From Teredinibacter franksiae (GTDB lineage Bacteria; Pseudomonadota; Gammaproteobacteria; Pseudomonadales; Cellvibrionaceae), in the NCBI RefSeq assembly GCF_014218805.1, contig NZ_JACJUV010000003.1:62001-126000 (forward strand): 64,000 bases of DNA. Direction: 5' to 3'. The translations under genes and the position numbers were made by a program. Positions 3,718 through 28,990 of the stretch are shown here, in pieces. A model generated the notes under the pieces. The model searched no databases and was not told where the DNA came from. It was given only the letters and a program-made list of their open reading frames with translations. The first letter of the stretch is position 1; each line of letters starts with the position of its first letter.

Positions 3718-4296
3718 TACTGAAACACAGATGATTCTGTTTAACCGCTAAAATAGGAACTTGTTAACATTTTGCACGCCGAGCTTTAGTTCTGGCATCA
3801 AAAAGCGCCCACTCCAATGTCGCCCACTAATTCAGCTTTGCAATATGAAACGGGGTATTAAATTTCTTTTTATAATATCCAGTGCACAAAAAACCATACC
3901 TTTTTCCCAAGTTTGTATATTTGGCCCAACAATCTGTACACCCCCACAGCCATTTCAGTTACCATGGCCAAAGCCCTGCGGATAGGAGCCGAAGAATAAT
4001 AAGTAAGACGGCTTTTTGTAATCGCAAATGTGTTTTTGTGTTTAAAGACACATTGTTACCTACGGGGCCCCAAACGTTTACACATAATAAAAACGCAAAC
4101 GTTTTGGGAACAGTAAAAATTATAATTTCTATCGTTGGTGAACCTCGCCCATAAGGCTATTTCACCCAGCCGGTTGTGCATAAGTGTATCCATCTTTTGT
4201 CTTCCCACCGGCATAGAGCACGCCCTACTCGATTAATATTTATGGGCATCATGTTTTGCGAGCTAGTTTTATTCGACACCCCCTAGAGGACGAAAA
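3718..4296 (+). promoter_or_regulatory. Control region upstream of the GH6 cellulase
   Basis: This 580-base gap has no convincing gene; small open frames at 3761-3985 and 3882-4154 lack ribosome binding sites and recognisable sequence. It contains the paired AAACGTTT motifs described separately and presumably the GH6 promoter. An AGAGGA ribosome binding site lies at 4285-4290, six bases before the ATG. Confidence 0.55.
4072..4104. promoter_or_regulatory. Paired AAACGTTT palindromes, candidate operator
   Basis: Two copies of the 8-bp palindrome AAACGTTT (4072-4079 and 4097-4104) lie 25 bp apart, centre to centre. The outer flanks are also related by dyad symmetry (CCCC before the first, TGGG after the second). 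LacI- and related family repressors bind short A/T-flanked palindromes with a central CG, so a sugar-responsive repressor site for the GH6 gene is plausible. The regulator is not visible in the window. Confidence 0.4.
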
Positions 4297-6447
4297 ATGA
4301 AAATAAACAAAATGTTTAAAAACTTGCGCCTAGCTAGCGCTGCGATGGCGGTATTTTTATCGCCTGCAGCCTTCGCGCAACTTACCTGTGAAGTAACGGG
4401 CCTTAACCAGTGGAACTCTGGCTATCAGGCTGACGTAACCGTAACTAACAACGGAAGCTCCGCTTCTTCTGACTGGACAATCGACGTCACTTTTGACGCC
4501 GACGCCGGCTTCAGCGCTGGCTGGAATGCTAACTACTCATCTTCCGGTAACACAGTAACGGCAAGCAACATTAGCTGGAACGGTAACCTGAATGCAGGTG
4601 GTTCCACCTCCGTAGGCTTCCAAGGTACTTCCAACGGAAACCTAAGCGTTAGCAGTTGTAGCGTTCGCGGTTCAACCTCCAGCAGCTCAAGCTCTTCTAG
4701 TAGCAGCTCTTCCAGCAGCTCAAGCTCCTCTTCAAGCAGCAGCAGTTCAAGCTCTTCTTCAAGTAGTAGCTCTTCCAGCAGCTCAAGCTCTTCTTCAAGT
4801 ATTAGCTCTTCCAGCAGCTCAAGCTCTTCTTCCAGCAGCACTGGAACTGGCAGCTGTGCTGGCGTGAATGTATACCCTAACTGGACAGCGAAAGACTGGG
4901 CCGGCGGTGCATACAACCATGCCGAAGGCGGAGACCAGATGGTTTACGACAACACGCTCTATCAAGCCAACTGGTACACCAACAGTGTTCCTGGCAGCGA
5001 TGGCACTTGGTCTAACCTAGGTTCGTGTGATTCGACGTCCAGCTCTAGCTCTTCTTCAAGTAGCTCTAGCAGCTCCAGCTCTTCCTCTAGCAGCTCCAGC
5101 TCTTCAAGTTCTTCTAGCATCTCTAGCTCTTCTTCAAGCAGCTCTAGTTCTTCCAGCAGCTCTAGCTCTAGCAGCTCGTCTTCCAGCACTCCTGACATCG
5201 ACCGTGTAGATAACCCGTTCGTAGGTGCCAAGTGGTACGTAGACCCCGTATGGTCTGACAAGGCTTCTGGTGAGCCTGGTGGTTCTTCCATTGCCGGTGA
5301 AGCAACTTTCGTATGGATGGACCGCATTGGAGCAATTGCTGGCCCAGCCGATGGCGACGGTCTTGGCTTGCGCGGTCACCTAGATGAAGCGTTAGCTCAA
5401 AATGCCAACCTATTCGAATTCGTTGTTTACGACCTGCCTAACCGTGACTGTGCGGCCTTGGCTTCCAACGGTGAACTGCGTATTTCTGAAGGTGGCTTTG
5501 AAATCTACCAAACTCAGTACATCGACGAAATCGTGTCTATTCTAAGCGATCCTGCTTACGCTGCATTGCGTATTGCAGCGGTTATCGAAGTTGACTCACT
5601 GCCTAACCTGATCACCAACCTAGACGAGCCTGACTGTCAGGAAGCTTCCGGTGCAGGCGGTTATGTTGACGGTATTCGTTATGCGCTGCAGCAGCTCGGA
5701 ACTCTAGACAATGTGTACTCCTATGTTGACATCGCTCACTCTGGCTGGTTGGGTTGGTCAGACAACTTCACTGCTGGTGCTGCCCTTATCGGCGATGCGG
5801 TTTCCAACCTTGGCAATGGGATTAACCCAATTGCGGGCTTCGTATCCAACTCGGCTAACTACACTCCAGTTGAAGAACCTTTCATCAGCGACGTAAACCT
5901 TCAGGTAGGCGGCCTTCCTCTTCGTTCGGCCGACTTCTATGAGTGGAACATGTATGCTGATGAGCTGAGCTTCGTAACTGACTGGCGTAACGCGATGGTT
6001 TCACGTGGTTTGCCTAGTAACATCGGCATGCTGATTGATACTGCCCGGAATGGATGGGGTGGTTCCGACCGTCCTACTCAGGCGTCTACCAGTAGCGATC
6101 TAAACACCTATGTTAACGAATCCCGCATCGACCGCCGTGAGCACCGTGGTAACTGGTGTAACCAGGCCGGTGGTGTTGGCTACCGCCCTCAGGCTGCTCC
6201 ACACGCAGGTATTGACGCTTATGTTTGGGTTAAGCCTCAGGGCGAGTCTGACGGAGTTTCCGATCCCAATTTCGAGATCGATCCTAACGACCCCAACAAG
6301 CAGCACGACCCAATGTGTGATCCAAATGCAGATAACCGTTACGACAGCACCTACGGTACTGGCGCAATGGACAACGCACCACACGCTGGTCGCTGGTTCC
6401 CAGAAGCCTTCCAGGTATTAGTGGAAAAAGCTTATCCTGCTCTGTAA
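4297..6447 (+). CDS. Secreted GH6 cellulase with CBM2 and CBM5/12-like modules
   Basis: A 716-residue secreted beta-1,4-glucanase of family GH6 (inverting; cellobiohydrolase or endoglucanase). The signal peptide ends at AFA-27/Gln28. Order: CBM2 (29-125), polyserine linker with an occasional Ile, CBM5/12-like module (about 187-247), second polyserine linker, GH6 domain (about 306-716). The GH6 signature YDLPNRDCAALASNGE carries Asp379, and EVDSLPN carries Asp433, corresponding to the two central acids of the family. HSGWLGW and WVKPQGESDG (Glu650, Asp652) are also present. The module order is the mirror of the GH9 protein upstream, with catalytic domain last and CBM2 first. Both genes are on the same strand but separated by terminators and a long control region, so they are probably separate transcription units. 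Exo versus endo action cannot be decided without loop modelling. Confidence 0.96.
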   Translation: MKINKMFKNLRLASAAMAVFLSPAAFAQLTCEVTGLNQWNSGYQADVTVTNNGSSASSDWTIDVTFDADAGFSAGWNANYSSSGNTVTASNISWNGNLNAGGSTSVGFQGTSNGNLSVSSCSVRGSTSSSSSSSSSSSSSSSSSSSSSSSSSSSSSSSSSSSSSSSSSISSSSSSSSSSSSTGTGSCAGVNVYPNWTAKDWAGGAYNHAEGGDQMVYDNTLYQANWYTNSVPGSDGTWSNLGSCDSTSSSSSSSSSSSSSSSSSSSSSSSSSSSISSSSSSSSSSSSSSSSSSSSSSTPDIDRVDNPFVGAKWYVDPVWSDKASGEPGGSSIAGEATFVWMDRIGAIAGPADGDGLGLRGHLDEALAQNANLFEFVVYDLPNRDCAALASNGELRISEGGFEIYQTQYIDEIVSILSDPAYAALRIAAVIEVDSLPNLITNLDEPDCQEASGAGGYVDGIRYALQQLGTLDNVYSYVDIAHSGWLGWSDNFTAGAALIGDAVSNLGNGINPIAGFVSNSANYTPVEEPFISDVNLQVGGLPLRSADFYEWNMYADELSFVTDWRNAMVSRGLPSNIGMLIDTARNGWGGSDRPTQASTSSDLNTYVNESRIDRREHRGNWCNQAGGVGYRPQAAPHAGIDAYVWVKPQGESDGVSDPNFEIDPNDPNKQHDPMCDPNADNRYDSTYGTGAMDNAPHAGRWFPEAFQVLVEKAYPAL

Positions 6448-18036: not shown

Positions 18037-19767
18037 GTGGACCACCTGAAATCGACATTAAAAATAGAACTGTCGCAAATCAGCGACAAAGGCCCCAAAT
18101 CTGAAAACCAAGATACGGTCGGCGCCCGTATTCCGTCAGATGACCAACATTCCACACTTGCCACCAAGGGTATTGCCATTGCTGTTGCTGACGGCGTAAG
18201 CAGTAGCTCTTCTGCTCGCCAGGCAAGCCAGGCGGCCGTGACAGGTTTTTTAACCGACTACTACGCCACACCCGAAACCTGGCGCACGCAACAATCCGCG
18301 GTGCGAGTAATTCACTCACTAAACTCCTACCTATGGGGACTAAGCCAAAATAGTATTAGGGGTGAAGGCCATCTCACTACTTTTAGCGCCTTGGTTTTAA
18401 AAGGTGACAAACTCTTTACCTTCCACATTGGTGACACGCGTATTTATCGCCTACGCGACAACCAGTTAGAACAATTAACCCGTGACCACTGCCAAGTAAT
18501 TGATAAAAACACCACCTACTTAAGTCGCGCTTTGGGCGCCGACATTACCGTAGATGTGGACATGCATATGGACGAAGTAGAGCCCGGCGATCTGTACGTG
18601 CTCACCTCCGACGGTATTCACGATGCTATCCCAGCAAAAATATTTAATCAGCTGGTAATCGACAATCAAGAAAACCCCGAAGCCCTCACCAGCAAGGCCT
18701 CGGCACTTTCCGCTGAACACAACACCAAAGACAACATCAGTATTCAAGCCGTTCGTGTGCTGTCCATTGGTACACCCTCGCAATCGGATGCGGTCACAAT
18801 TCTATCGAAACTACCCTTCCCACCTTTGCTCGAACCCGGTAATAAACTGGATAGCATGACCGTCGAAAAAATCTTGCACGAATCTGAACGCAGCCAAGTG
18901 TATTTAGTGAAAAATGAACAGGGTACACCGCTGGTGATGAAAACCCCCTCGGTTAATTACGAAGATGACCCAGCATATATCGAGCGTTTTGTTATGGAAT
19001 CTTGGATTGGCTCACGTATTCAAAACGCCCAAGTCGCCAGGGTGGTTACACCGCCACACGCGCGCAAAACACTCTATTACCTTACCGAACATATCGCCGG
19101 CCCCACACTCCAGCAGCTAATAAAGGAACGTGCGCCCTTTGACATTCCCGATGCCATCGAATTAACAGAGCAAATCATTAAGGGTATTCGCGCTTTTCAC
19201 CGCAAAGACACACTCCATCAAGACATAAAACCCGCCAATATTGTGATCGGCTCTCAGGGGGCCACCATTATCGATTTTGGCTCCTGCTGGGTAGCCGGTA
19301 TACAGGAAGCTGGCGCGCCGTTTCAGCGAGACGAGGTGCTCGGCACACTGGACTACTCTGCGCCGGAATACCGTTATGGCGGTAATGTTGGCCATAAATC
19401 CGACCAATTTTCACTAGCGGTACTACTGTATGAAATGTTCACCCAAAAGCACCCCTATGGGGAGGCCTACAGTAAGGCAAACAGCCTGAAGAGCTTCCAA
19501 AAGCTCACTTACATTCCCGCACAAAAACATAACGCGCTGGTGCCCCCATGGCTGGACAAAGCGATGGCAAAGGCCCTGAGCATTCAGCCCGGCAACCGCT
19601 ACGCCGCCCTCTCCGAGTGGCAGCTCGACCTGCAACGACCAAACCCCAATTGGACAGGAGCAGCGGGCACACCTTTTCTGGAAAAAGACCCAATGCTATT
19701 TTGGAAGATACTGGCCGGTTTTGGCTGGATGATTGCGTTGGCACTGTTTATTAGCAAAACCCTGTAG
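18037..19767 (+). CDS. Bifunctional PP2C phosphatase / Ser-Thr protein kinase, membrane-anchored
   Basis: A 576-residue fusion starting at GTG (AGGA eight bases upstream). The N-terminal PP2C domain (about 5-245) has metal-binding Asp26 (SENQD) and Asp52 (VADGV) and the later TSDGI motif. The kinase domain (about 270-535) has the ATP-binding Lys302 (VMK), the catalytic loop HQDIKPANI (Asp396, with Gln replacing the usual Arg), and DFG Asp413. The HRD Arg change suggests activation-loop phosphorylation is not needed. A single C-terminal helix (FWKILAGFGWMIALALFI) would place the enzyme on the cytoplasmic face of the membrane. Its partner proteins are unknown; the neighbouring nitrate transporter, and similar pairs in pseudomonads, suggest a role in nitrate assimilation. 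Confidence 0.92.
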   Translation: MDHLKSTLKIELSQISDKGPKSENQDTVGARIPSDDQHSTLATKGIAIAVADGVSSSSSARQASQAAVTGFLTDYYATPETWRTQQSAVRVIHSLNSYLWGLSQNSIRGEGHLTTFSALVLKGDKLFTFHIGDTRIYRLRDNQLEQLTRDHCQVIDKNTTYLSRALGADITVDVDMHMDEVEPGDLYVLTSDGIHDAIPAKIFNQLVIDNQENPEALTSKASALSAEHNTKDNISIQAVRVLSIGTPSQSDAVTILSKLPFPPLLEPGNKLDSMTVEKILHESERSQVYLVKNEQGTPLVMKTPSVNYEDDPAYIERFVMESWIGSRIQNAQVARVVTPPHARKTLYYLTEHIAGPTLQQLIKERAPFDIPDAIELTEQIIKGIRAFHRKDTLHQDIKPANIVIGSQGATIIDFGSCWVAGIQEAGAPFQRDEVLGTLDYSAPEYRYGGNVGHKSDQFSLAVLLYEMFTQKHPYGEAYSKANSLKSFQKLTYIPAQKHNALVPPWLDKAMAKALSIQPGNRYAALSEWQLDLQRPNPNWTGAAGTPFLEKDPMLFWKILAGFGWMIALALFISKTL

Positions 19768-19829
19768 GCAATAATCAATAGGCAAAAATTACTTTGCTAT
19801 ACTTTTTGAGCACTCAAAAGGTAACGGCA

Positions 19830-20944
19830 ATGCTGAATTTTATCCGTTCCTGGTTTCAGGGAAATGGCCCCACACCGCTAGAGATTGAAACGCTCGAACA
19901 AAAAGTCAAAAAGCTTGAGCAAGAGCTGCAGCTCTTGCTCAAGCCGAACAAAGCAGGCTTCGTGACCTATGGATCTCCAATGCCGCGACCATGGAGCATA
20001 TTCGCGAAAGTATGGCCCAAACGACATCCACTGCCTTAGAACAGAAAAGTCAATTGACTGAATCGTCTGTAAATTACCAACAAATAAAAACTATACTCAC
20101 GGCAATCAGTGAATCTCTACATGTGATGGACAACAAAACAGCGAAAGTTACCGAGGGTGTACAGGAGCTTACAGAAGTTGGTACCCAAATTGAGAGCTTT
20201 GTGACACAAATACGAGGCATATCCGACCAAACTAATCTCCTCGCATTGAATGCCGCGATTGAAGCCGCTAGAGCAGGAGAACAAGGCCGCGGATTTGCCG
20301 TAGTGGCCGATGAGGTGCGTGCACTCGCGCAAAAGTCGGCACAGGCATCTTCAGAAATATCGGACCTTATCCACACCATTACCGATAAAACAGAAGACGT
20401 TGCCCAACGCATTTCGGAAACCAGTACAACCGTTCAGCAAACATCTCAATCGACGAAAGATATATCCATAATCGTCGACGACTTTACCCATCACGCACAA
20501 AACATGTCACTAACCATTGCGCTTTCCGCCTAACGATCCTTTGTTCAAACCGTGAAATTAGATCACGTTGTTTGGAAATCCGAAGTATATCGCCGGTTTT
20601 GGGGGAAATCAGAAAAGTCGCTAGATACCTTTTCTGATCATACCGAGTGTCGGTTGGGCAAATGGTACTATCAAGGAGATGGTAAAAAATCGTTCAGCCA
20701 TTTGCATTCATTTAAAGCAATAGAGGCACCTCACCGAGACGTACACACAAAGGGCATTGAAGCATTACAGTTCGCTGAGCAAAATAAAACAGATGACGCA
20801 TTTAACTCACTGAGTGACATGGAAACCGCCAGCGATAAAGTTCTTACATTATTAACCGCAATTGAAAGCGATATTGTTAACACTTACACTTCAGGAACAA
20901 CAACTTCAATACACCAACATAGCACAGAGGCCGAAATTTTTTAG
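19830..20944 (+). pseudogene. Interrupted soluble chemoreceptor with C-terminal CZB zinc domain
   Basis: The reading frame is broken twice. From the ATG at 19830 a coiled-coil N-terminus ([19 protein letters not shown]) runs to about 19960, where a net one-base loss shifts the frame. The second part ([17 protein letters not shown], then the receptor hairpin motif [19 protein letters not shown]) ends at TAA 20531-20533. The same frame then continues as SFVQTVKLDHVVWK into a CZB domain (to 20944) with the zinc-ligand pattern LDHVVWK, CRLGKWYYQG and HRDVH. Joined, these make a cytoplasmic receptor with no membrane segment, as in CZB chemoreceptors that sense zinc or hypochlorous acid. Two independent lesions favour a real pseudogene; sequencing error remains possible. 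Confidence 0.8.
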
Positions 20945-20957
20945 TGTGTGTAGCTTG

Positions 20958-22064
20958 TCAGAGACGCCCGTTAAGGTCGCTAATACAGTGCTTTGGAGGT
21001 AAAGGGTTGGTGCAAAAACGTTCCACACCTTTCGCCTCAACCGCTTGCCACAACGACTGAATAAGCTGCTCTTTGGAACCCGGTGCTTCCCACCCACTGT
21101 TGTTTATCCACTGCGCAATAGCGTCCGCCACATTCGGATAAACCACACGGGGACCCGAAAAATGCTTCAGCCAGTCCGCCGTCACTTTGGACTCTAGGGT
21201 ATCCATGGTCATGGCAAGCTTCAGCTCCTCCATGGCCCTAGCATTGGATAACTGCTCCAACTGCCCTCGTAAAGGCTTCACCAATATCTTCTTACCTAGG
21301 TGAATAGCTTCACTGGACAACTCAAAACCGGCGTTACTGATAACACCTTCACAGGTCGCAAGATCATACTTAAAGCCGTCACGTGATAGTGGCCGCAATT
21401 CAATATGGCCTCGCGTTTCCGGCTTTTCAAAATCACCATAATAGTAAAATTTGTAGTCCGTGAAAGGTTTAAGCAATGCCAATACAGCCTCAATTGACTC
21501 AAACCCGAGGTATACCAAAATTTTTCCCGCTACCACGGTGTCTTCAGTAACATCCATATCAACAATAGGCGGCAGTATTTGTTGATCAAAATGATGCCAG
21601 TGCAAACCCAAACTAGCCGCTGCAGGCGCGAACATTTCCATAATTTTTCGCCCCAAATAGTCATCGCCTCGACGCGGAACTTTATGGTCAAATGCATATT
21701 GATGACCTACACCAATACAAGCTATACCTTTACGACGAGCCGCCCATGCAGTAATAGGTTCAAAGTCTGTCAGCACAATATCGTAGGGCTTTAGATCTAG
21801 CTGGTTAATATCCAGCCACAGCTGTCGAAGGCTGGTCTTTTTTAGCGTTTTCCAAACATTTATTTTCCCGGCTTGGTGGGCAAACGTTAATCCACGTTTA
21901 CATTGCCAACTACCAAATTCTTCCATATCAAAATAGTTTGCCCTGTCTCTACCAGAGAACAAGTAATCAACTTCAATACCATATTCACATAGGTATTTAT
22001 TTAAAGCACGCGCACGACTCAAGTGACCGTTGCCCGTCCCCTGAACACCGTAGAGTATTTTCAT
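20958..22064 (-). CDS. Glycosyltransferase-like protein, MJ1255 family
   Basis: A 368-residue GT-B fold protein. The ATG at 22064 follows AGGAGA by seven bases. The N-terminus MKILYGVQGTGNGHLSRA is the glycine-rich nucleotide-sugar transferase loop of this conserved family (related to MurG and UDP-glucuronosyltransferases). The second half has VISNAGFELSSEAIHLGKK, matching the donor-binding motif of such enzymes. The PAP2 phosphatase gene lies 29 bases upstream on the same strand, so they are probably co-transcribed and may modify a lipid-linked glycan. Donor and acceptor are unknown. Confidence 0.82.
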   Translation of the reverse strand: MKILYGVQGTGNGHLSRARALNKYLCEYGIEVDYLFSGRDRANYFDMEEFGSWQCKRGLTFAHQAGKINVWKTLKKTSLRQLWLDINQLDLKPYDIVLTDFEPITAWAARRKGIACIGVGHQYAFDHKVPRRGDDYLGRKIMEMFAPAAASLGLHWHHFDQQILPPIVDMDVTEDTVVAGKILVYLGFESIEAVLALLKPFTDYKFYYYGDFEKPETRGHIELRPLSRDGFKYDLATCEGVISNAGFELSSEAIHLGKKILVKPLRGQLEQLSNARAMEELKLAMTMDTLESKVTADWLKHFSGPRVVYPNVADAIAQWINNSGWEAPGSKEQLIQSLWQAVEAKGVERFCTNPLPPKHCISDLNGRL

Positions 22065-22093
22065 TGAGTTCTCCTGTGCGCACCTCAATTAAT

Positions 22094-22606
22094 TTAAAGA
22101 AGGCTCATTGCCAAAACACAAATAGAGTGCCCGAGCAATGCACCCGCCATTACATCCGTTGGAAAATGCACACCGAGCATAACGCGTGCAGCGCCTACAC
22201 TCGCGGCCCAAGGGTATAGAACCCAGATTAACCATGGAAATTCAGCGCTCAAAGCACAAGCCACTAAAAAAGCAGCCGAAGTATGTCCTGATGGAAAACT
22301 GAACTGGTCAGAAGGCGTCACCTCACTTGTAAATCCAGGTATAGCTACCGCAGGGCGATTCCGACGAAAAGACGATTTAAAGATTAAATACAGCACACGC
22401 TCTACAAGAAATGTAACGCCCATTAACTTCGCCATATGCCATTGACCTAACAATATAAAGACAACACCCAGAACCCCGTACACAGGCCCGTCCGCCGTCC
22501 TAGAAACATACCGACTTAATACAACCGCCAATTCGCGATGCCTACGACGTAAACACCAGTCGAATGTAGCTAAGTCAATTTGATGTATATTCTGTAAAAC
22601 ACGCAT
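22094..22606 (-). CDS. PAP2-family membrane phosphatase
   Basis: A 170-residue inner membrane protein of the type 2 phosphatidic acid phosphatase family. The ATG at 22606 is chosen for the GGAGGG before it; an open frame extends to 22657 without a ribosome binding site. All three catalytic motifs are present: KSSFRRNRP, PSGHTSAAF and SVGAARVMLGVHFPTD (Ala replaces the usual Arg next to Ser but Arg follows). Such enzymes dephosphorylate phosphatidate, undecaprenyl pyrophosphate or lipid A. It is the first gene of a pair with the glycosyltransferase. Confidence 0.88.
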   Translation of the reverse strand: MRVLQNIHQIDLATFDWCLRRRHRELAVVLSRYVSRTADGPVYGVLGVVFILLGQWHMAKLMGVTFLVERVLYLIFKSSFRRNRPAVAIPGFTSEVTPSDQFSFPSGHTSAAFLVACALSAEFPWLIWVLYPWAASVGAARVMLGVHFPTDVMAGALLGHSICVLAMSLL

Positions 22607-23075
22607 GCTCAGCCCTCCAATGAAGGCCAAACTACCACCGAACTGTGACAGAAACATGAGGGTATTATGACGATTTGGTTACACCAGCAACAATCCAACA
22701 CCTAATAAACGATATCTGTATCAATACCACCCCATATCGCAAGGGCATCAACATACACCCTCTACCGCCTGTGCTCGAACGCGCCATAACTTCCATTTGG
22801 GCTCCTCTATTAATTGATTTTAGCCTCTGCGCGATCAGGCAGGCCTTAGTGTAAGGTCAACTGCGCAGAAGTAGGCTGGTTGCCCTTCCAAGCAGATAAT
22901 TCGTTCTCACTACAACCGTCAAAAACGATCGACATCGACACCCTAGAGCCTTCCCTCAAAATACTGGCACCTATCCTATTCTTACGTTATCGTGCACTCC
23001 GGCATATCTGCCTGATCCATACTAAAATCTATACACCAGTAATCTGTAAGCCAGCATCTCCGCGAGGAACTCTAG
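22607..23075. other. Intergenic region before the DUF1538 gene
   Basis: A 469-base gap between divergent genes. It contains copy B of the dispersed element (22799-22886) and presumably the promoters of both neighbours; the short open frame at 22880-23101 is not convincing. GAGGA at 23065-23069 serves the TTG start at 23076. Confidence 0.5.
22799..22886. repeat. Dispersed intergenic element, copy B (about 88 bp)
   Basis: It starts GGGCTCCTCTATTAATTG and shares TTTTAGCCTCTGCGCG with copy C. The inner arms CTGCGCG/CTGCGCAG pair and enclose a hairpin GGCCTTA/TAAGGTC; the right end is GTTGCCCTT. Confidence 0.65.
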
Positions 23076-24956
23076 TTGAAAAACCCAGACCTGCATATTG
23101 AGTTAAGCCTCTCAGAAAAACTCAGCATTCTTTGGCCCTACATCGCAGATAACTTCTTAAGCCAAGTAAAGAGTATTTGGTTTATCGTTTTTTACCTGGC
23201 AATTTTTCAAATTCTGGTTCTTGGCCTACCTCTTGTTTACACCACAATGATTTCTGTGGGTATTTTTATCGTTGTGCTCGGGCTAATGTTCTTTATGGAA
23301 GGCCTACGACTGGGTTTGATGCCTCTGGGTGAAACCATTGGTGCAATTCTACCCCGTAATACACCCCTTTGGGGCGTGCTGTTGTTTTCATTTGTAATGG
23401 GCGTAGGCGCCACCTTTGCAGAACCAGCCATTGCGGTACTACGCTCGGCAGGAGCCGGCGTTCGTGCCGAACAAACACCCTTGCTATTCAGCTTGCTAAA
23501 CGATTTCACCGGTGAGCTGGTAAGTGTTGTGGGGATTGGTGTTGGCTTGGCGGTACTTTTAGGCGTGCTGCGTTTTTACCGCAACTGGTCCCTTAAAATT
23601 CTGGTACTACCGATAGTGGCATTACTGATAGTGCTTACGCTATTCGCCAACACCATTCCGCAATTGCAGGCGGTATTAGGCCTTGCCTGGGACTGTGGAG
23701 CCGTAACCACCGGGCCAGTAACCGTTCCCCTTGTGCTAGCGCTGGGCATAGGTGTTTGCCGTATTCTAGGTGATGGTGATACCAGTAATGCCGGGTTTGG
23801 CATTGTCACTTTGGCCTCACTATTTCCGATTATTGCGGTGCTATTACTCAGCTTTTATCACTATTTTAATAACGATTATATAGGTGCAGAAAACTATACA
23901 GGCGAATACAAAATTGAAACGCTGGCAACCACCATTAAAAGTGACCAGCCCAATATGCGCTTGAACACCAACACGTTATTTAGTGAGGAAGAATATCGCC
24001 GTTATGCCGATTCTGACAACTTCAATATTAAATATGAAGTTGAATATCGAGGTGGCACCAAGCAATTGGTCGATGGCGAAATTGTTATTTCGAATGCACA
24101 AATTGTGCTAACAAAAACCCCATCCCCCATTCCGGCCCTAATGAGCAAAGACACCTGGAACCCAGCCGTTGAGATAGCTAAAGACCTTCAATCATCTTTA
24201 ATGGCTTCTATACGAGCGATTGTGCCACTGTGTATATTCCTGGTGGCATCCCTGTGGCTTATATTGCGGCTCAACAAAGAAAAACTCAAAGTAGCAATGG
24301 AAATTAAAATCGGTATTGCCTTTGCTCTCATCGGCATGACTTTATTCATGCTTGGCTTGAGTTTAGGATTAACACCTCTGGGTTCACAGCTGGGCGGCAA
24401 TATTCCCACAGCATTCGCAAGCCTAACACCATGGGGCGCTGAAGGTGGTGGATTTGTACCGCCTAAATTTGATACTGAAGCAACAGGAAAAGTTATCGCT
24501 ATTATTTTTGGTTTTTTCCTCGGTTATGGCGCCACCTTGGCAGAGCCTGCATTGAACGCACTAGGTAACACCGTCGAGAAAGTGACCGTAGGCGCCTTTA
24601 AAAAACGCCTACTTATGCACTCCGTTGCCTTCGGTGTTGGAATGGGTATTGCTACGGGCGTAACCAAAATCGCCTTCAATTTACCGCTGATAAACCTCTT
24701 AATTCCGCCCTACCTTTTATTGTTACTTCTTACTTGGTGGTCTTCTGAAGAGTTTGTCAATTTCGGCTGGGATTCAGCGGGTGTAACTACCGGCCCCATT
24801 ACCGTACCCCTAGTTTTGGCGATGGGCTTGGGGGTAGGTGCTGCGGTACCCGGTGTATCCGATGGTTTTGGCATTTTAGCTCTCGCATCGGTCGGCCCCA
24901 TTATTACCGTGCTCAGCGTTGGGCTTATTGTTGCACGAATAAATAGAGATCAATGA
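23076..24956 (+). CDS. DUF1538 membrane protein with internal duplication
   Basis: A 626-residue inner membrane protein starting at TTG (GAGGA seven bases upstream). It contains two homologous DUF1538 halves, about residues 10-270 and 375-622. Each carries the same two motifs: GATFAEPAIAVL / GATLAEPALNAL, and WDCGAVTTGPVTVPLVLA / WDSAGVTTGPITVPLVLA, plus a GLMPLGE / GLTPLGS element. Between the halves is a hydrophilic insert of about 90 residues (KIETLATTIKSDQPN onward). An inverted or tandem repeat with conserved polar residues inside helices is the pattern of a transporter. Its stop overlaps the start of the triple PII-like gene (ATGA), so the two are translated together and probably act together. 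Substrate unknown. Confidence 0.85.
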   Translation: MKNPDLHIELSLSEKLSILWPYIADNFLSQVKSIWFIVFYLAIFQILVLGLPLVYTTMISVGIFIVVLGLMFFMEGLRLGLMPLGETIGAILPRNTPLWGVLLFSFVMGVGATFAEPAIAVLRSAGAGVRAEQTPLLFSLLNDFTGELVSVVGIGVGLAVLLGVLRFYRNWSLKILVLPIVALLIVLTLFANTIPQLQAVLGLAWDCGAVTTGPVTVPLVLALGIGVCRILGDGDTSNAGFGIVTLASLFPIIAVLLLSFYHYFNNDYIGAENYTGEYKIETLATTIKSDQPNMRLNTNTLFSEEEYRRYADSDNFNIKYEVEYRGGTKQLVDGEIVISNAQIVLTKTPSPIPALMSKDTWNPAVEIAKDLQSSLMASIRAIVPLCIFLVASLWLILRLNKEKLKVAMEIKIGIAFALIGMTLFMLGLSLGLTPLGSQLGGNIPTAFASLTPWGAEGGGFVPPKFDTEATGKVIAIIFGFFLGYGATLAEPALNALGNTVEKVTVGAFKKRLLMHSVAFGVGMGIATGVTKIAFNLPLINLLIPPYLLLLLLTWWSSEEFVNFGWDSAGVTTGPITVPLVLAMGLGVGAAVPGVSDGFGILALASVGPIITVLSVGLIVARINRDQ

Positions 24957-26170
24957 TGGCAGCGTTTATTGAGAAAACCGGCTTTTCCGTGGTGAGCTTG
25001 ATCATTCCTCAAGCTCGCTTACACAATTGTTTAAAGCAGGTTTTAAGCCAGTGGCCCTATAAAGTAATTCAATTTGACTGCCGTGGCACCATGATTAGAG
25101 AACACTGGTTCCAGGCTTTTTTACCTACAATGAACCCAGAGTGTGAATACTTACAGCTTCTTGTCTGTGATAAAGACCTTAGTGCGTTTGTACAATTTTG
25201 CATAGAGGTCAATGACCTACATCTACCGGGTTCCGGTGCAATATTCAGCACACAGTGCTCCTATTTCTCTACCAATTCCGAATTCAATTTATTGATAGAT
25301 AGAAGCCAAACACAAGAAAGGAGCCTACAAGACACATCGGCGATTAGTTTAAAAAATAATCTTTACGCACTCTACGCACTGGTTCAATCCGGACGAACAG
25401 ACAACGCGATCAAAGCCGCAATGCAAGCGGGTTCACACGGCCCCATTGTCTATTTCGTTGAAGGTCGTGGTACGCGGGACAGAGTTAGTTGGCTGAAAAT
25501 CACCAAAAAGCCTTACGAAGAAGTGGTTATGGTATTAGTGGAGGACATCGACAGAGAGCGGGTAAAGGAAGCTCTGGTATCTGCAGGGCGAATTAATACC
25601 CTTGGCGGCGGAATTGTATTCGAAATATCCATTGAACACGGATTGGTAAATTTACCAACCTCCATAAGCAATAAAAGTCGCTTGGCCTCCAACCAACAAA
25701 TAACCGCGGCCGTTGATCAACTAATGGGCAGTACAGACTGGCGAGATACCCGCTCTATAGCTACGCTACTGGACAAAAATCAAAGATCTAAAGAACAGGC
25801 AGATACACAAAAAAGCAGCTCGCTGTGCGCCTTAATACCACGTAAACATGCTGACGAATTTTTAGATTACATTCTAAGTATTGGCATTCCGGGCGCTAAT
25901 GTGATTTATACCAAATTATTTTCCGGAGACGACGATCAGAACGCACAACATCTCAACTTTCACCACGAACTGGTACAAATTCGCATGGTACTGCCTACCG
26001 AGCAGTGTGCGCACTTCCGCTCTCAGCTGCAGCAATTTGTTACCCTTCAGGGCTACCGCAATGTGACAATTTATGCGCTCACAGTGAAAGGCGTTGCGCG
26101 CTACCAGCTAAAACCACGAGAAAAAAGCAAGGGGGCCGTATACCGCGGGTCCTCATCCATAGCGGACTAG
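24953..26170 (+). CDS. Protein with three tandem PII-like domains
   Basis: A 405-residue soluble protein. The middle domain (about 131-238) is a clear PII-like unit (YALVQSGRTDNAIKAAMQAG, then VVMVLVEDIDRERVKEALVS and GGGIVFEISIEHGLV). Residues about 286-390 repeat the fold (LCALIPRKHADEFLDYILSI, LVQIRMVLPTEQ, NVTIYALTVKGVARY). Residues about 8-108 are a weaker third copy (SVVSLIIPQARLHNCLKQVL, YLQLLVCDKDLSAFVQ). PII proteins normally are trimers of one such domain, so one chain here could form the whole ring. Only the middle copy keeps the glycine-rich nucleotide-loop-like region; the others are diverged. Start codon ATG at 24953 overlaps the DUF1538 stop; a second ATG at 24956 is equally possible. 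Likely a regulator of the DUF1538 transporter; ligand unknown. Confidence 0.78.
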   Translation: MMAAFIEKTGFSVVSLIIPQARLHNCLKQVLSQWPYKVIQFDCRGTMIREHWFQAFLPTMNPECEYLQLLVCDKDLSAFVQFCIEVNDLHLPGSGAIFSTQCSYFSTNSEFNLLIDRSQTQERSLQDTSAISLKNNLYALYALVQSGRTDNAIKAAMQAGSHGPIVYFVEGRGTRDRVSWLKITKKPYEEVVMVLVEDIDRERVKEALVSAGRINTLGGGIVFEISIEHGLVNLPTSISNKSRLASNQQITAAVDQLMGSTDWRDTRSIATLLDKNQRSKEQADTQKSSSLCALIPRKHADEFLDYILSIGIPGANVIYTKLFSGDDDQNAQHLNFHHELVQIRMVLPTEQCAHFRSQLQQFVTLQGYRNVTIYALTVKGVARYQLKPREKSKGAVYRGSSSIAD

Positions 26171-26182
26171 CGGCCGCAAGAT

Positions 26183-26212
26183 AAAGCCAGGGCGGTTTTT
26201 GCGCCGGCTTTT
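26183..26212 (+). terminator. Probable terminator after the PII-like gene
   Basis: AAAGCC-AG-GGCG (26183-26194) pairs with CGCC-GGCTTTT (26202-26212), with a 7-base loop and a 2-base bulge. A second small hairpin GCCCT/AGGGC follows at 26222-26235. Confidence 0.6.
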
Positions 26213-26230
26213 GAATCTCTAGCCCTCGCT

Positions 26231-26245
26231 AGGGCACCTTTACTA
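26231..26245. repeat. Possible solo end of the AGGGCA element
   Basis: AGGGCACCTTTACTA resembles the AGGGCA-CTCTA-TAA end of the dispersed element. Only one end is seen and its first five bases also form a small hairpin, so the assignment is weak. Confidence 0.25.
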
Positions 26246-26268
26246 CCTCCTCAGAAAAACCACTGTAT

Positions 26269-28227
26269 CTACGACCCAATATTGGCTTCAACAAACCCCA
26301 CCAACGCCTTTAGTGCCTGAATACGTGTAGCGCTATCCTGCAGATAGTGATCATCATTTTTAAGCTTAATCAATTTCACATTACCGCCAGACTTTTTCAT
26401 CGCTTTATACATCAGTTTAGACTGGCTGTATTCCACTACTGTATCGTCCGCACCGTGAATAAGAAGAACAGGAATTTTTACTTTATCGGCCGAATAATAG
26501 GGGGAAACTTCCTTCAAAATATCTTTACTGTAATCGCCATCTAAAATACTGCGATTCCAATAATCCAGCACCCAGCTTTTTTTCCCATAACGGCTTTTAT
26601 CGGCTTTAAGCATTTTGGGTAAATGGCTCACCCCGGCAATGGATACAGCACACTGATATAAATCCGGCGTAAAGGCTGCACCAGCAAGGGCTGCGTAACC
26701 GCCATAACTTGCCCCTACAATACAAACCCGCGCGGGGTCGGCATAGCCTTTTTTTACGAAAAAATTCACGCCATCGGTTAGGTCGTCCTGCATGGCTTTA
26801 CCCCACTGCCCCCAACCCGCTTTATAGTGCTCCTGGCCAAAACCGGTAGAGCCACGAAATTGCGGTTGAACCACCAGATACCCACGAGACGCCAATGCCT
26901 GCGCCCTATAATCAAAACCAATAACATCCTGTGCTGCTGGACCGCCATGGGGCATAATAATTGTTGGCAGGTTTTTTAACTTCCCCATTTTTGCTTTTGG
27001 TAATGTCAGTATCGTGGGAATCGCGCGTCCATCTCGCGCCTTATACGTTACCTTTCCTATCGGGTTGATATCCTCCGATGCTATGTCTAGGCGTGAGCTA
27101 ACCATAGATTTAAGGGACTGCCCCTCTGTAAACAGAAAATAATCGCCTGCGTACAAAGAGCCCTCTACACGCACAACAATGTGCTTCCAATCGTTTGTCC
27201 AGTTGCTGAGATAGACGGAGTGCCCTTCAAACTTGCCCAGAATACCCTGAACTCGCTTGTGTAAGGCTCTGTCAAAGAAGTGGTAATCTGGTATTAAGCC
27301 CGAATAGGCTACACCAACCACCACTCCATGATGGTCTTTTATCACGCCACGGGTGTTTTTAGCGGCATCAAACCCTTCCAGTGGTGTAACGCTTCCATCT
27401 TTTAACGAAAGCTGCAAAAAACTTTCATCATCGTCATTTCGGCTATACACCAGTGCCGTAAAGTCACTATTTAAACCAATAAAACTGTGGGTGGGTATTT
27501 CGGCCTCATAACTGTACAGCGTTCGCCATTTACGCCCCTCTTTCAGTTCGACGCTGTGCACATTATTTCGATCATTACGGTTTTCGCGGGCGAGAATATT
27601 ACCTTCACTATCCAGAAAGTAATCTCGGGTATGGTCAGTTCCCCTAGTTGCCACTCGCGGCTTACCTTTGCCATCGATATTGATCTCTAGCAATGAATAA
27701 TTGGGTGCGTAATCGAGATCAGATTCGGCTACGTACGCTGGCATATACAGCTTTTTACCGTTAACCGACTTGCCCGCCACACGCCCCAACCCCGACTGAC
27801 CCTCTGCCACTCGGCGCTTTCCCGATATATTTTCTCCCAACCTAATGAGCTGAAAAACCTCTTTATTTTTAATGTCAAAGCTAAATGCCGTACTCACATC
27901 AAAATCGTGCTTATAATCCCTCCATTTCACATGCTTAGAGCCAACAAGTATTAAAAAATCGTTATTTGAAAAATACTGCCAGCGAGGATCAATCTCGCTC
28001 ACATCCACGGCTGCAATCATTTTTTTTTCTTTCAACGAGTAAACCACAATAAAATCTCTATCGTCTGACTCTGTGCGCCGATAGGAAATAAGCTCACCAT
28101 TGGGCGAAATACTAACGTCGCTTACTTGCTCTAGCTTACCGTAGGCCTCCAGATCAACTTCACCAATAGCCAGTGACGGTATAAAAGATAACAATCCCAA
28201 AATTAAAATCGAATAATAATATTTCAC
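26269..28227 (-). CDS. S9 family (prolyl oligopeptidase-like) serine peptidase, exported
   Basis: A 652-residue exported peptidase with a signal peptide (YYYSILILGLLSFIPSLAIG). The start is GTG at 28227; no in-frame ATG is better placed. The N-terminal two thirds form a beta-propeller with the SPNGELISYRR pattern; the C-terminal alpha/beta hydrolase domain (about 400-652) has the triad Ser507 (GASYGG), Asp595 (HGADDTVV) and His627 (DDHYL). Such enzymes (S9C acylaminoacyl peptidase type) cleave short peptides. A run of five TTTTTA-type hexamers sits just upstream of its start. No operon partner is evident. Confidence 0.93.
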   Translation of the reverse strand: MKYYYSILILGLLSFIPSLAIGEVDLEAYGKLEQVSDVSISPNGELISYRRTESDDRDFIVVYSLKEKKMIAAVDVSEIDPRWQYFSNNDFLILVGSKHVKWRDYKHDFDVSTAFSFDIKNKEVFQLIRLGENISGKRRVAEGQSGLGRVAGKSVNGKKLYMPAYVAESDLDYAPNYSLLEINIDGKGKPRVATRGTDHTRDYFLDSEGNILARENRNDRNNVHSVELKEGRKWRTLYSYEAEIPTHSFIGLNSDFTALVYSRNDDDESFLQLSLKDGSVTPLEGFDAAKNTRGVIKDHHGVVVGVAYSGLIPDYHFFDRALHKRVQGILGKFEGHSVYLSNWTNDWKHIVVRVEGSLYAGDYFLFTEGQSLKSMVSSRLDIASEDINPIGKVTYKARDGRAIPTILTLPKAKMGKLKNLPTIIMPHGGPAAQDVIGFDYRAQALASRGYLVVQPQFRGSTGFGQEHYKAGWGQWGKAMQDDLTDGVNFFVKKGYADPARVCIVGASYGGYAALAGAAFTPDLYQCAVSIAGVSHLPKMLKADKSRYGKKSWVLDYWNRSILDGDYSKDILKEVSPYYSADKVKIPVLLIHGADDTVVEYSQSKLMYKAMKKSGGNVKLIKLKNDDHYLQDSATRIQALKALVGFVEANIGS

Positions 28228-28319: not shown

Positions 28320-28990
28320 TTAACACCAAGACTGCTGGCCAGCAGGGTTTTCCAACAACTCGCGAATATTCGCCTCAATAATGCGATACCCTACATTGCC
28401 CGAAAGTTTTTGCCGCCCCTCATTGAAGATAAGCGTAGGGCTAGATTTAACTCCCAGCTCCACCGATTTATACATATTACTGCAAATGCTGGCATGGGCC
28501 TTTCCACTATCGACACTGGTACGGATAACATCGATAGGTAAACCCGACTGTTCGGCAATGGCCAACAGCTCCATGCGGTTGGAAATATCTCGCGCCTCAA
28601 CAAAGAATGCTCTTCGCATTTTTTGCATAAATTGGGTAAAGGCCCCTCCCTTGCCAACCCCGATAACTCGGCCATTTTCGCTGCGGCAAGAAAGAGGTGC
28701 GCCGGCAGTGATGATTGCGGGGTGTTCTTTACCCAGACATCTGGATGAATATCGAGATGGTCGAATTTATCCGCAACAGATTGTACATGGGCATTATAGG
28801 TTTCGATGCCTCCACGATCACCCCAGCTTTTTTCCATTTTCCCAGGAACATCACCAAACACAGGGAAAAAGTGATAATCCACCTCTACCTTGTCACCAAA
28901 TTCGGTTAGTAATTCTTCTACCCGAATTTGTGACACGTAGGCCCAAATACAGAGCACATCAGAAAAGTGATCCACTTTGATTTTCGACAT
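28320..28990 (-). pseudogene. DsbA-family (FrnE-like) oxidoreductase, frameshifted
   Basis: The two reading frames together encode one DsbA-like thioredoxin-fold protein. The first part starts at ATG 28990 (GAGAGG six bases upstream) with DHFSDVLCIWAYVSQIRVEEL, where Cys14-Ile-Trp-Ala is the active-site position (CxxA, not CxxC), and continues to HLFLAAAKMAEL. After a one-base indel in the C/G run at 28643-28650, the sequence resumes in another frame as AFTQFMQKMRRAFFVEARDI and ends with the family features GVKSSPTLIFNEGRQKLSGNVG. Relatives act on disulfides or as 2-hydroxychromene-2-carboxylate isomerases. The break is in a homopolymer, so either recent inactivation or a sequencing error. 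Confidence 0.82.

Follow-up and report, generated by a model that had tools for sequence, protein, structure and literature searches.

The 64,000-nucleotide stretch of Teredinibacter franksiae DNA analysed here (contig NZ_JACJUV010000003.1, positions 62,001 to 126,000; the window in what follows) carries on its + strand an isolated two-gene unit that specifies a fused DUF1538 membrane protein of 626 residues and a 405-residue protein composed of three PII-like domains, D1, D2 and D3. The three domains are unequal: the half of the PII ligand cleft that D1 has lost is complementary to the half lost by D3, and D2 has both halves. This pattern, which is firm as a count, is the new result of this analysis; the gene pair itself and its conserved partnership are likewise firm. 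On balance, and with some reserve, we favor the reading that the pair constitutes a regulated cation/proton antiporter, in which an UmpAB-type transporter would be served by a dedicated cytosolic regulator, a pseudo-trimer of three PII-like domains with two composite clefts.

Three PII-like domains and their half-sites

All three thirds of the 405-residue protein are PII-like, and firmly so. The AlphaFold2 (AF2) model has three βαβ-βαβ units (residues 11-107, 137-233 and 288-383) with T-loops of low confidence; its predicted template modelling score (pTM) of 0.73, with about one quarter of the residues below 50 in the predicted local distance difference test (pLDDT), suggests a defined domain arrangement. 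Twelve profile-profile comparisons among D1, D2, D3 and the single-domain relatives encoded at other DUF1538 loci (types S, P1 and P2, described below) score 34.7-123.8, as against control maxima of 13.2-20.3 for column-shuffled profiles (20 per pair) and 7.7-19.6 for reversed ones. (The real scores recomputed without two GlnB sequences that the P1 profile had contained are 48-153; the shuffled maxima are those computed with the P1 profile still containing both.) The clean scores of D1, D2 and D3 are 79, 153 and 95 against P1, and 57, 61 and 48 against P2. Every PDB sequence matched by the family profile at E ≤ 0.1 is a PII protein (13 of 13), with six matches falling in the first third (best E 4.5e-4), five in the second (best 0.0065) and two in the last (best 0.02). 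A non-PII first or last third is rejected by the model, the profile comparisons and the PDB matches, with the caveat that VIA-align, which provides structural matches for D2 and for D3, has none for D1 alone among the matches listed.

The initial annotation of this DNA had described one clear and two diverged PII-like domains. That description, and with it the PII fold of the outer thirds, holds: D2 has nine of the 11 residues common to the single-domain relatives, D1 has three and D3 two, and conservation is highest in D2 (2.92 bits, as against 2.33 and 1.95 for the other two). Pfam P-II (PF00543) recognizes the middle third only, at 18.9 bits and thus below its gathering score of 25, and a search of the genome with PF00543 does not return the 405-residue protein; within the family, 25 of 39 members are matched at E ≤ 0.01 (best 2.9e-11). 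Scores against a profile of two GlnB sequences are weak (D1, 39.0; D3, 32.6; D2, 23.7), and that of D2 hardly exceeds the shuffled maxima. Since D2, the clear domain, scores lowest in this comparison, it is the PDB and Pfam matches and the single-domain relatives that connect the protein to PII proper. The protein departs from canonical PII in having three domains per chain instead of one, and in its lack of Q39, D88, K90, R101 and R103 (D2 shows R175, G219, I221 and gaps; D1 and D3 are also without these residues). The last four we take to be the classical PII nucleotide residues, and all five together the nucleotide/2-oxoglutarate set. With the classical nucleotide residues absent from all three domains, binding of ATP or 2-oxoglutarate is not to be assumed.

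PII ligand sites are clefts between two subunits. For the half-site counts, T-loop root and B-loop are taken together as the A face of a domain and the start of β2 as its B face, the glycines of which presumably line the ligand. The accessible portion of PMC6243067 places the β2 edge of one PII subunit beside the T-loop root of its neighbor, and that of PMC3198391 assigns the T- and B-loop to one monomer and the C-loop to the other. In the 139 three-domain sequences, cut to 124 at 90% identity, the A-face equivalents of G35 and G89 (GlnB numbering, here and for the other positions counted in this way) are present in 124 and 124 sequences for D1, in 124 and 124 for D2, and in 0 and 0 for D3. 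The B-face equivalents of G24 and G27 are present in 53 and 5 for D1, in 124 and 124 for D2, and in 122 and 122 for D3. The same positions, in the order G35, G89, G24 and G27, are kept in 70, 70, 70 and 69 of 70 single-domain S proteins, in all 34 P1 proteins at each of the four, and in 30, 26, 20 and 0 of 34 products of the second PII gene, P2.

What this pattern means structurally we infer from sequence: since one half is always kept and the other lost, a different partner domain would be needed to complete a site. The initial annotation had proposed only one intact ligand site, and here it requires correction. What is single is the intact domain (D2); the half-site count allows two composite sites, D1/D2 and D2/D3, with a dead D3/D1 junction, that is, neither three equal sites nor just one. 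T-loop conservation amounts to 2.95 bits in D1, 3.42 in D2 and 1.75 in D3, with core values of 2.13 and 2.39 for D1 and 2.99 and 2.76 for D2. These figures also bear on the proposal that sensing and docking fall to D2 alone, D1 and D3 being degenerate fillers that complete the fold. The proposal is unlikely, although it accords with the signature-residue counts and with the higher conservation of D2 given above: fillers would lose both half-sites, whereas D1 and D3 each hold one almost without exception, and the T-loop of D1 is more conserved than the D1 core.

The DUF1538 partner and its architectures

Pfam DUF1538 (PF07556) matches the upstream gene product in two stretches (whole protein, E 2.6e-110 and 367 bits, with a cut-off of 22.6), in agreement with the TTG-started, internally duplicated DUF1538 protein of the initial annotation. 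At least 8000 homologues are scored, and close relatives match its length of 626 residues; the AF2 model has a pLDDT of 79.8 and a pTM of 0.80. NCBIfam UmpA matches residues 29-259 with 224 bits and UmpB residues 374-618 with 157 bits, the respective equivalog cut-offs of 490 and 500 being set for separate subunits. Judged by these matches, the protein is both halves of an UmpAB-type transporter in one fused chain. The accessible portion of PMC5484666 describes UmpAB of Halomonas zhaodongensis, the two-gene DUF1538 form, as a demonstrated Na+(Li+,K+)/H+ antiporter that acts as a heterodimer and gives salt, lithium and alkali tolerance; by analogy, the window protein is probably a sodium/potassium-proton exchanger. 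The likeness to the Halomonas zhaodongensis system (PMC5484666, in its accessible portion) extends to both DUF1538 halves; the window form differs in being fused in one chain, in its long acidic linker and in falling short of the equivalog scores. The linker is 89-166 residues long in all 26 complete three-domain loci, as against 24-40 residues where a fused UmpAB is accompanied by one or two PII genes. It contains approximately 19 acidic versus 10 basic residues (family average, residues 261-370), and a location on the periplasmic side is weakly suggested. The cloned Halomonas zhaodongensis fragment ends with umpB according to the same portion of PMC5484666, in the accessible text of which a word search yielded no mention of PII.

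Homologues of the three-domain protein number 59 by sequence search and 119 by profile search (a few of the latter are fragments or chimeras) and include, besides Gammaproteobacteria, two Verrucomicrobiota, Cerasicoccus maritimus and Rubellicoccus peritrichatus. Scanning genome contigs with a pair of conserved peptide patterns produced 30 three-domain loci, of which the nearest, in Alteromonadaceae bacterium Bs31, is 90% identical. Chance or artefact is rejected by these homologues and loci. The DUF1538 gene lies directly upstream in 30 of the 30 loci (both halves are visible in 26, and the other four are cut at a contig end), which confirms the conserved neighborhood in related genomes that the initial annotation had called for. 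Full-length three-domain members were found in five of 145 sampled genomes of the order and, the window's own genome aside, not once in a sample of 398 from the phylum; the three-domain form is thus rare.

In an independent sample drawn from the class, 73 of 232 genomes contain DUF1538 as such. Stretches from all 73 were taken and at least 78 loci tallied, with gene types S, P1, P2 and CBS assigned by profiles built from fetched genes. Among the matches listed, a PII-like gene is found on the same strand in 75 of the 78 class loci; the other three, counted as misses, lack a PII gene in their stretch (L096 and L154 are at contig ends, and L088 has umpA alone). The PII gene is at most 50 bases from the DUF1538 frame in 64 of the 75, at most 200 in 72, and at most 1388 in all. 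PII regulation can thus be thought of as a general trait of this transporter family.

The class loci form a graded series. Again among the matches listed, 58 of the 78 have separate umpA and umpB, one PII-like gene (S, approximately 116 residues) and a CBS-pair gene; seven have fused UmpAB (linker 30-38) with S and CBS; six have fused UmpAB (linker 24-35) with P1 and P2 and no CBS; and four have fused UmpAB with a long linker (92-98) and the three-domain gene, also without CBS. The CBS-pair gene stands beside type S in 65 of 65 classified loci and is absent from all 10 class loci of the P1+P2 or three-domain kind. In 29 further loci, the best matches outside the class, P1 is present in 29, P2 in 27 and a visible fused UmpAB in 27, and a CBS gene within the 1.5-kilobase flank in none. 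The window's genome holds both ends of the series, since a second DUF1538 locus (L008 5214-7506; G000:C1:1541213-1543505) has umpA, umpB, a PII-like gene and a CBS-pair gene one after another, with overlaps or near-overlaps (the PII-like protein has 116 residues and scores 32.5 bits with Pfam P-II; the CBS pair scores 66 bits). Two loci stand outside the 78, L188 (umpA, umpB, S and CBS) and L189 (a broken copy with S and CBS remnants). The latter (3899-6232, genome G218) is a decayed umpA-umpB-S-CBS copy in pieces, and the same genome also has an intact copy (L104).

Domain order, proposed mechanism and alternatives

In a FastTree phylogeny of 128 domains D1, D2 and D3 each form one clade (support 0.975, 1.0 and 1.0), which implies that the three-domain chain arose once among the sampled sequences and that the roles of its domains were fixed early. 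D2 is nearest to P1 (30% mean identity, in addition to the profile score of 153). The deep branches are weak (D1+D3+GlnB, 0.75; P1+P2, 0.81) and, since all three domains score best against P1, the likeness of D1 to P2 rests on the lost β2 face only. D1 may descend from P2 and D3 from P1, or a duplicated P1-like gene may have given rise to both.

Arranged in the order D1A-D2B, D2A-D3B, D3A-D1B (letters designate faces), the half-sites generate two composite sites and one dead junction; the opposite order generates one complete site and two half-broken ones. The first arrangement has the greater economy, the half-site pattern itself not forcing either. Mean-field coupling analysis (139 sequences, approximately 100 effective) gives a hint of D1A-D2B, D2A-D3B in two of three comparisons. 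For A face with B face, the difference ranks within the top 2.0% of 5000 random registers and the sum within the top 0.4%; for T-loop root with β2, the difference is at the 5.6% and the sum at the 0.6% level of random registers.

From this material we infer a closed one-chain ring, its order, its binding to UmpAB, gating and a nucleotide-like ligand; ring, ligand and gating are likely. The upstream gene would supply a one-chain UmpAB-type transporter and the downstream gene its cytosolic regulator, the three PII-like domains of which would close on each other as a pseudo-trimer. One cleft would be made up of the T/B-loop side of D1 and the β2 side of D2, and the other of the T/B-loop side of D2 and the β2 side of D3, with D3/D1 dead. 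Ligand at the D1/D2 and D2/D3 clefts would set the posture of the conserved D1 and D2 T-loops, and these would touch both DUF1538 halves from the cytosol, opening or closing antiport. The conserved segment that follows D2 (residues 241-266, with D255, G259, W263 and R264) is a candidate for an extra contact. By analogy, the regulator most likely serves to control a Na+(Li+,K+)/H+ antiporter from the cytosol. A more specific version (an unequal covalent PII ring with two sites and two working T-loops, one per antiporter half, reached via a P1+P2 hetero-oligomer stage with the ancestral CBS sensor dropped) is tentative, its chances lying somewhat below even.

Pairing of the domains between chains, in a homo-oligomer (of three chains and nine domains, for example, or as a chain-swapped ring) without any single-chain ring, appears quite improbable. 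Complementary half-sites require a partner domain without saying that it is in the same chain and, to our knowledge, all solved PII and PII-like structures trimerise. On the other hand, homotypic trimers of D1 or of D3 would join a kept to a lost face and provide no reason to keep G45/G95 (124 of 124) or G311/G314 (122 of 124), and exactly three domains, fixed once as the clade support indicates, fit a closed trimer in cis. Least likely of the alternatives is a regulator that serves something other than transport gating and signals, for example, the state of the transporter or cation stress to a different target in the cytosol: gene neighborhood does indicate common use and not the direction of control, PII proteins have many enzyme targets, and GlnK can titrate regulators at the membrane, but the pair stands alone in the three-domain loci (CBS is absent from 30 of 30; no further gene was searched for) and a PII gene accompanies DUF1538 in every architecture.

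Every test made is consistent with an asymmetric ring in a single chain. Several observations nevertheless weigh against it or against parts of the mechanism built on it. The half-sites could also pair between chains. The T-loops are at pLDDT < 50 in the model, and the best Foldseek matches of the whole 405-residue model are non-PII. The A face of D1 is incomplete, in that the G37 equivalent is present in 0 of 124 sequences for D1 (D2, 124; D3, 10). A third coupling comparison (B-loop/β4 with the C-terminus) favors the opposite order, the top coupling pairs are noisy, and the order differences stand at the 5.6% and 2.0% level, uncorrected. T29, on the adenine side, is present in 70 of 70 S and 32 of 34 P1 proteins, and in only 2 (D1), 4 (D2) and 7 (D3) of 124 three-domain sequences; given this loss from each of the three domains, the protein may bind a different ligand or none. 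The window protein is, finally, far from reaching the UmpA and UmpB equivalog cut-offs.

PII control of a transporter is of an already known kind; the architecture is unusual. Among the closest known systems are SbtB, the PII-like regulator of the bicarbonate transporter SbtA, and PstA/DarA, a PII-like protein for cyclic di-AMP. GlnK-AmtB shares with the window pair a PII-fold regulator that is encoded beside a membrane transporter and expected to act through T-loops. In contrast, three identical single-domain chains make up GlnK, the partner of a trimeric channel, whereas the window specifies one chain with three unequal domains and a two-half antiporter, and its T-loops are shorter and come without the GlnB nucleotide residues D88, K90, R101 and R103. 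The direct comparison with GlnK-AmtB and SbtB-SbtA drawn in the initial annotation is accordingly better replaced by one with the regulators that belong to the UmpAB family itself (a single PII with CBS, or a pair of PII genes). Types S and P1+P2 have the same DUF1538 partner, D2 is closest to P1, and P2 has lost the β2 face like D1; unlike the three-domain protein, they are separate chains. A literature search, with subscription papers mostly outside its reach, found, among the papers listed, none that links PII with DUF1538 or describes a one-chain three-domain PII. PII proteins are textbook symmetric trimers; since a change in one subunit changes all three, it has been difficult to work out what the individual sites and T-loops contribute. 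A natural one-chain form whose domains differ would allow any one site or T-loop to be altered alone and its contribution directly tested. A widespread antiporter family, still of 'unknown function' in Pfam, is tied by these loci to PII (and CBS) signalling. This link suggests metabolite control of Na+/K+/pH homeostasis in the bacteria concerned, and the stages with one, two and three domains that survive in living genomes record the path from a symmetric to an asymmetric regulator.

Gene layout and other genes in the window

The 626-residue frame opens with TTG at 23076 and closes with a TGA stop at 24954-24956. The three-domain gene, which ends at 26170, starts either at ATG 24953 (four-base overlap) or at ATG 24956 (one-base overlap), and alignment of relatives suggests the latter. 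The stop of the DUF1538 gene does overlap the ATG of its neighbor, as first annotated, the junction reading ATGATG. Among the 30 three-domain loci the two genes overlap by 1-8 bases in 22 of the 27 measurable relatives and are separated by 2-32 bases in the other five (L022, L025 and L036 were excluded, the longest-frame rule having extended upstream). No Rfam match at E ≤ 1 to a riboswitch or other RNA that could name a ligand was found in 22000-27000, and promoter-like sites number four, versus 6.4 expected from shuffles.

Table 1. Features of the gene pair (window coordinates) and the basis of their assignment
Feature	Coordinates	Strand	Basis
Shine-Dalgarno-like GAGGAA, six bases 5' of the TTG start	23064..23069	+	by eye
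Fused UmpA-UmpB-like DUF1538 membrane protein, 626 residues, TTG start	23076..24956	+	Pfam, NCBIfam, homologues, AF2 model
N-terminal DUF1538 half, UmpA-like, residues 16-275	23121..23900	+	profile match 16-275; NCBIfam UmpA 29-259
Inter-half linker, ~93 residues, acidic, predicted small β element (residues 320-347)	23901..24179	+	charge profile; model
C-terminal DUF1538 half, UmpB-like, residues 369-626	24180..24953	+	profile match 369-626; NCBIfam UmpB 374-618
Stop/start overlap, ATGATG with TGA stop inside	24953..24956	+	sequence; relatives
Three-domain PII-like protein, 405 residues	24953..26170	+	homologues, model, profile comparisons, PDB sequence matches
D1, PII-like, residues 10-107; T-loop-root G45 and B-loop G95 kept, most of β2 face lost	24980..25273	+	βαβ-βαβ in model; profiles; PDB PII matches 46-109
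D2, PII-like, residues 134-232; both faces kept; sole third seen by Pfam P-II	25352..25648	+	Pfam, model, profiles, PDB
Conserved segment after D2, residues 241-266; D255, G259, W263, R264 invariant in 124-sequence set	25673..25750	+	alignment
D3, PII-like, residues 285-385; β2 G311 and G314 kept, T-loop-root and B-loop glycines lost	25805..26107	+	

Elsewhere in the window, a chemoreceptor-like gene (19794-20944) is seemingly broken into frames, with MCPsignal in 19991-20533 and, at 20552-20944 in a different frame, a CZB zinc-binding domain. On the - strand, a DSBA/thioredoxin-like gene (28320-28990) lies in two overlapping frames, its N-terminal part in 28391-28990 and its C-terminal part in 28320-28628, an apparent frameshift. 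At 18037-19767, a PP2C-type phosphatase and a protein kinase domain are fused in one chain.

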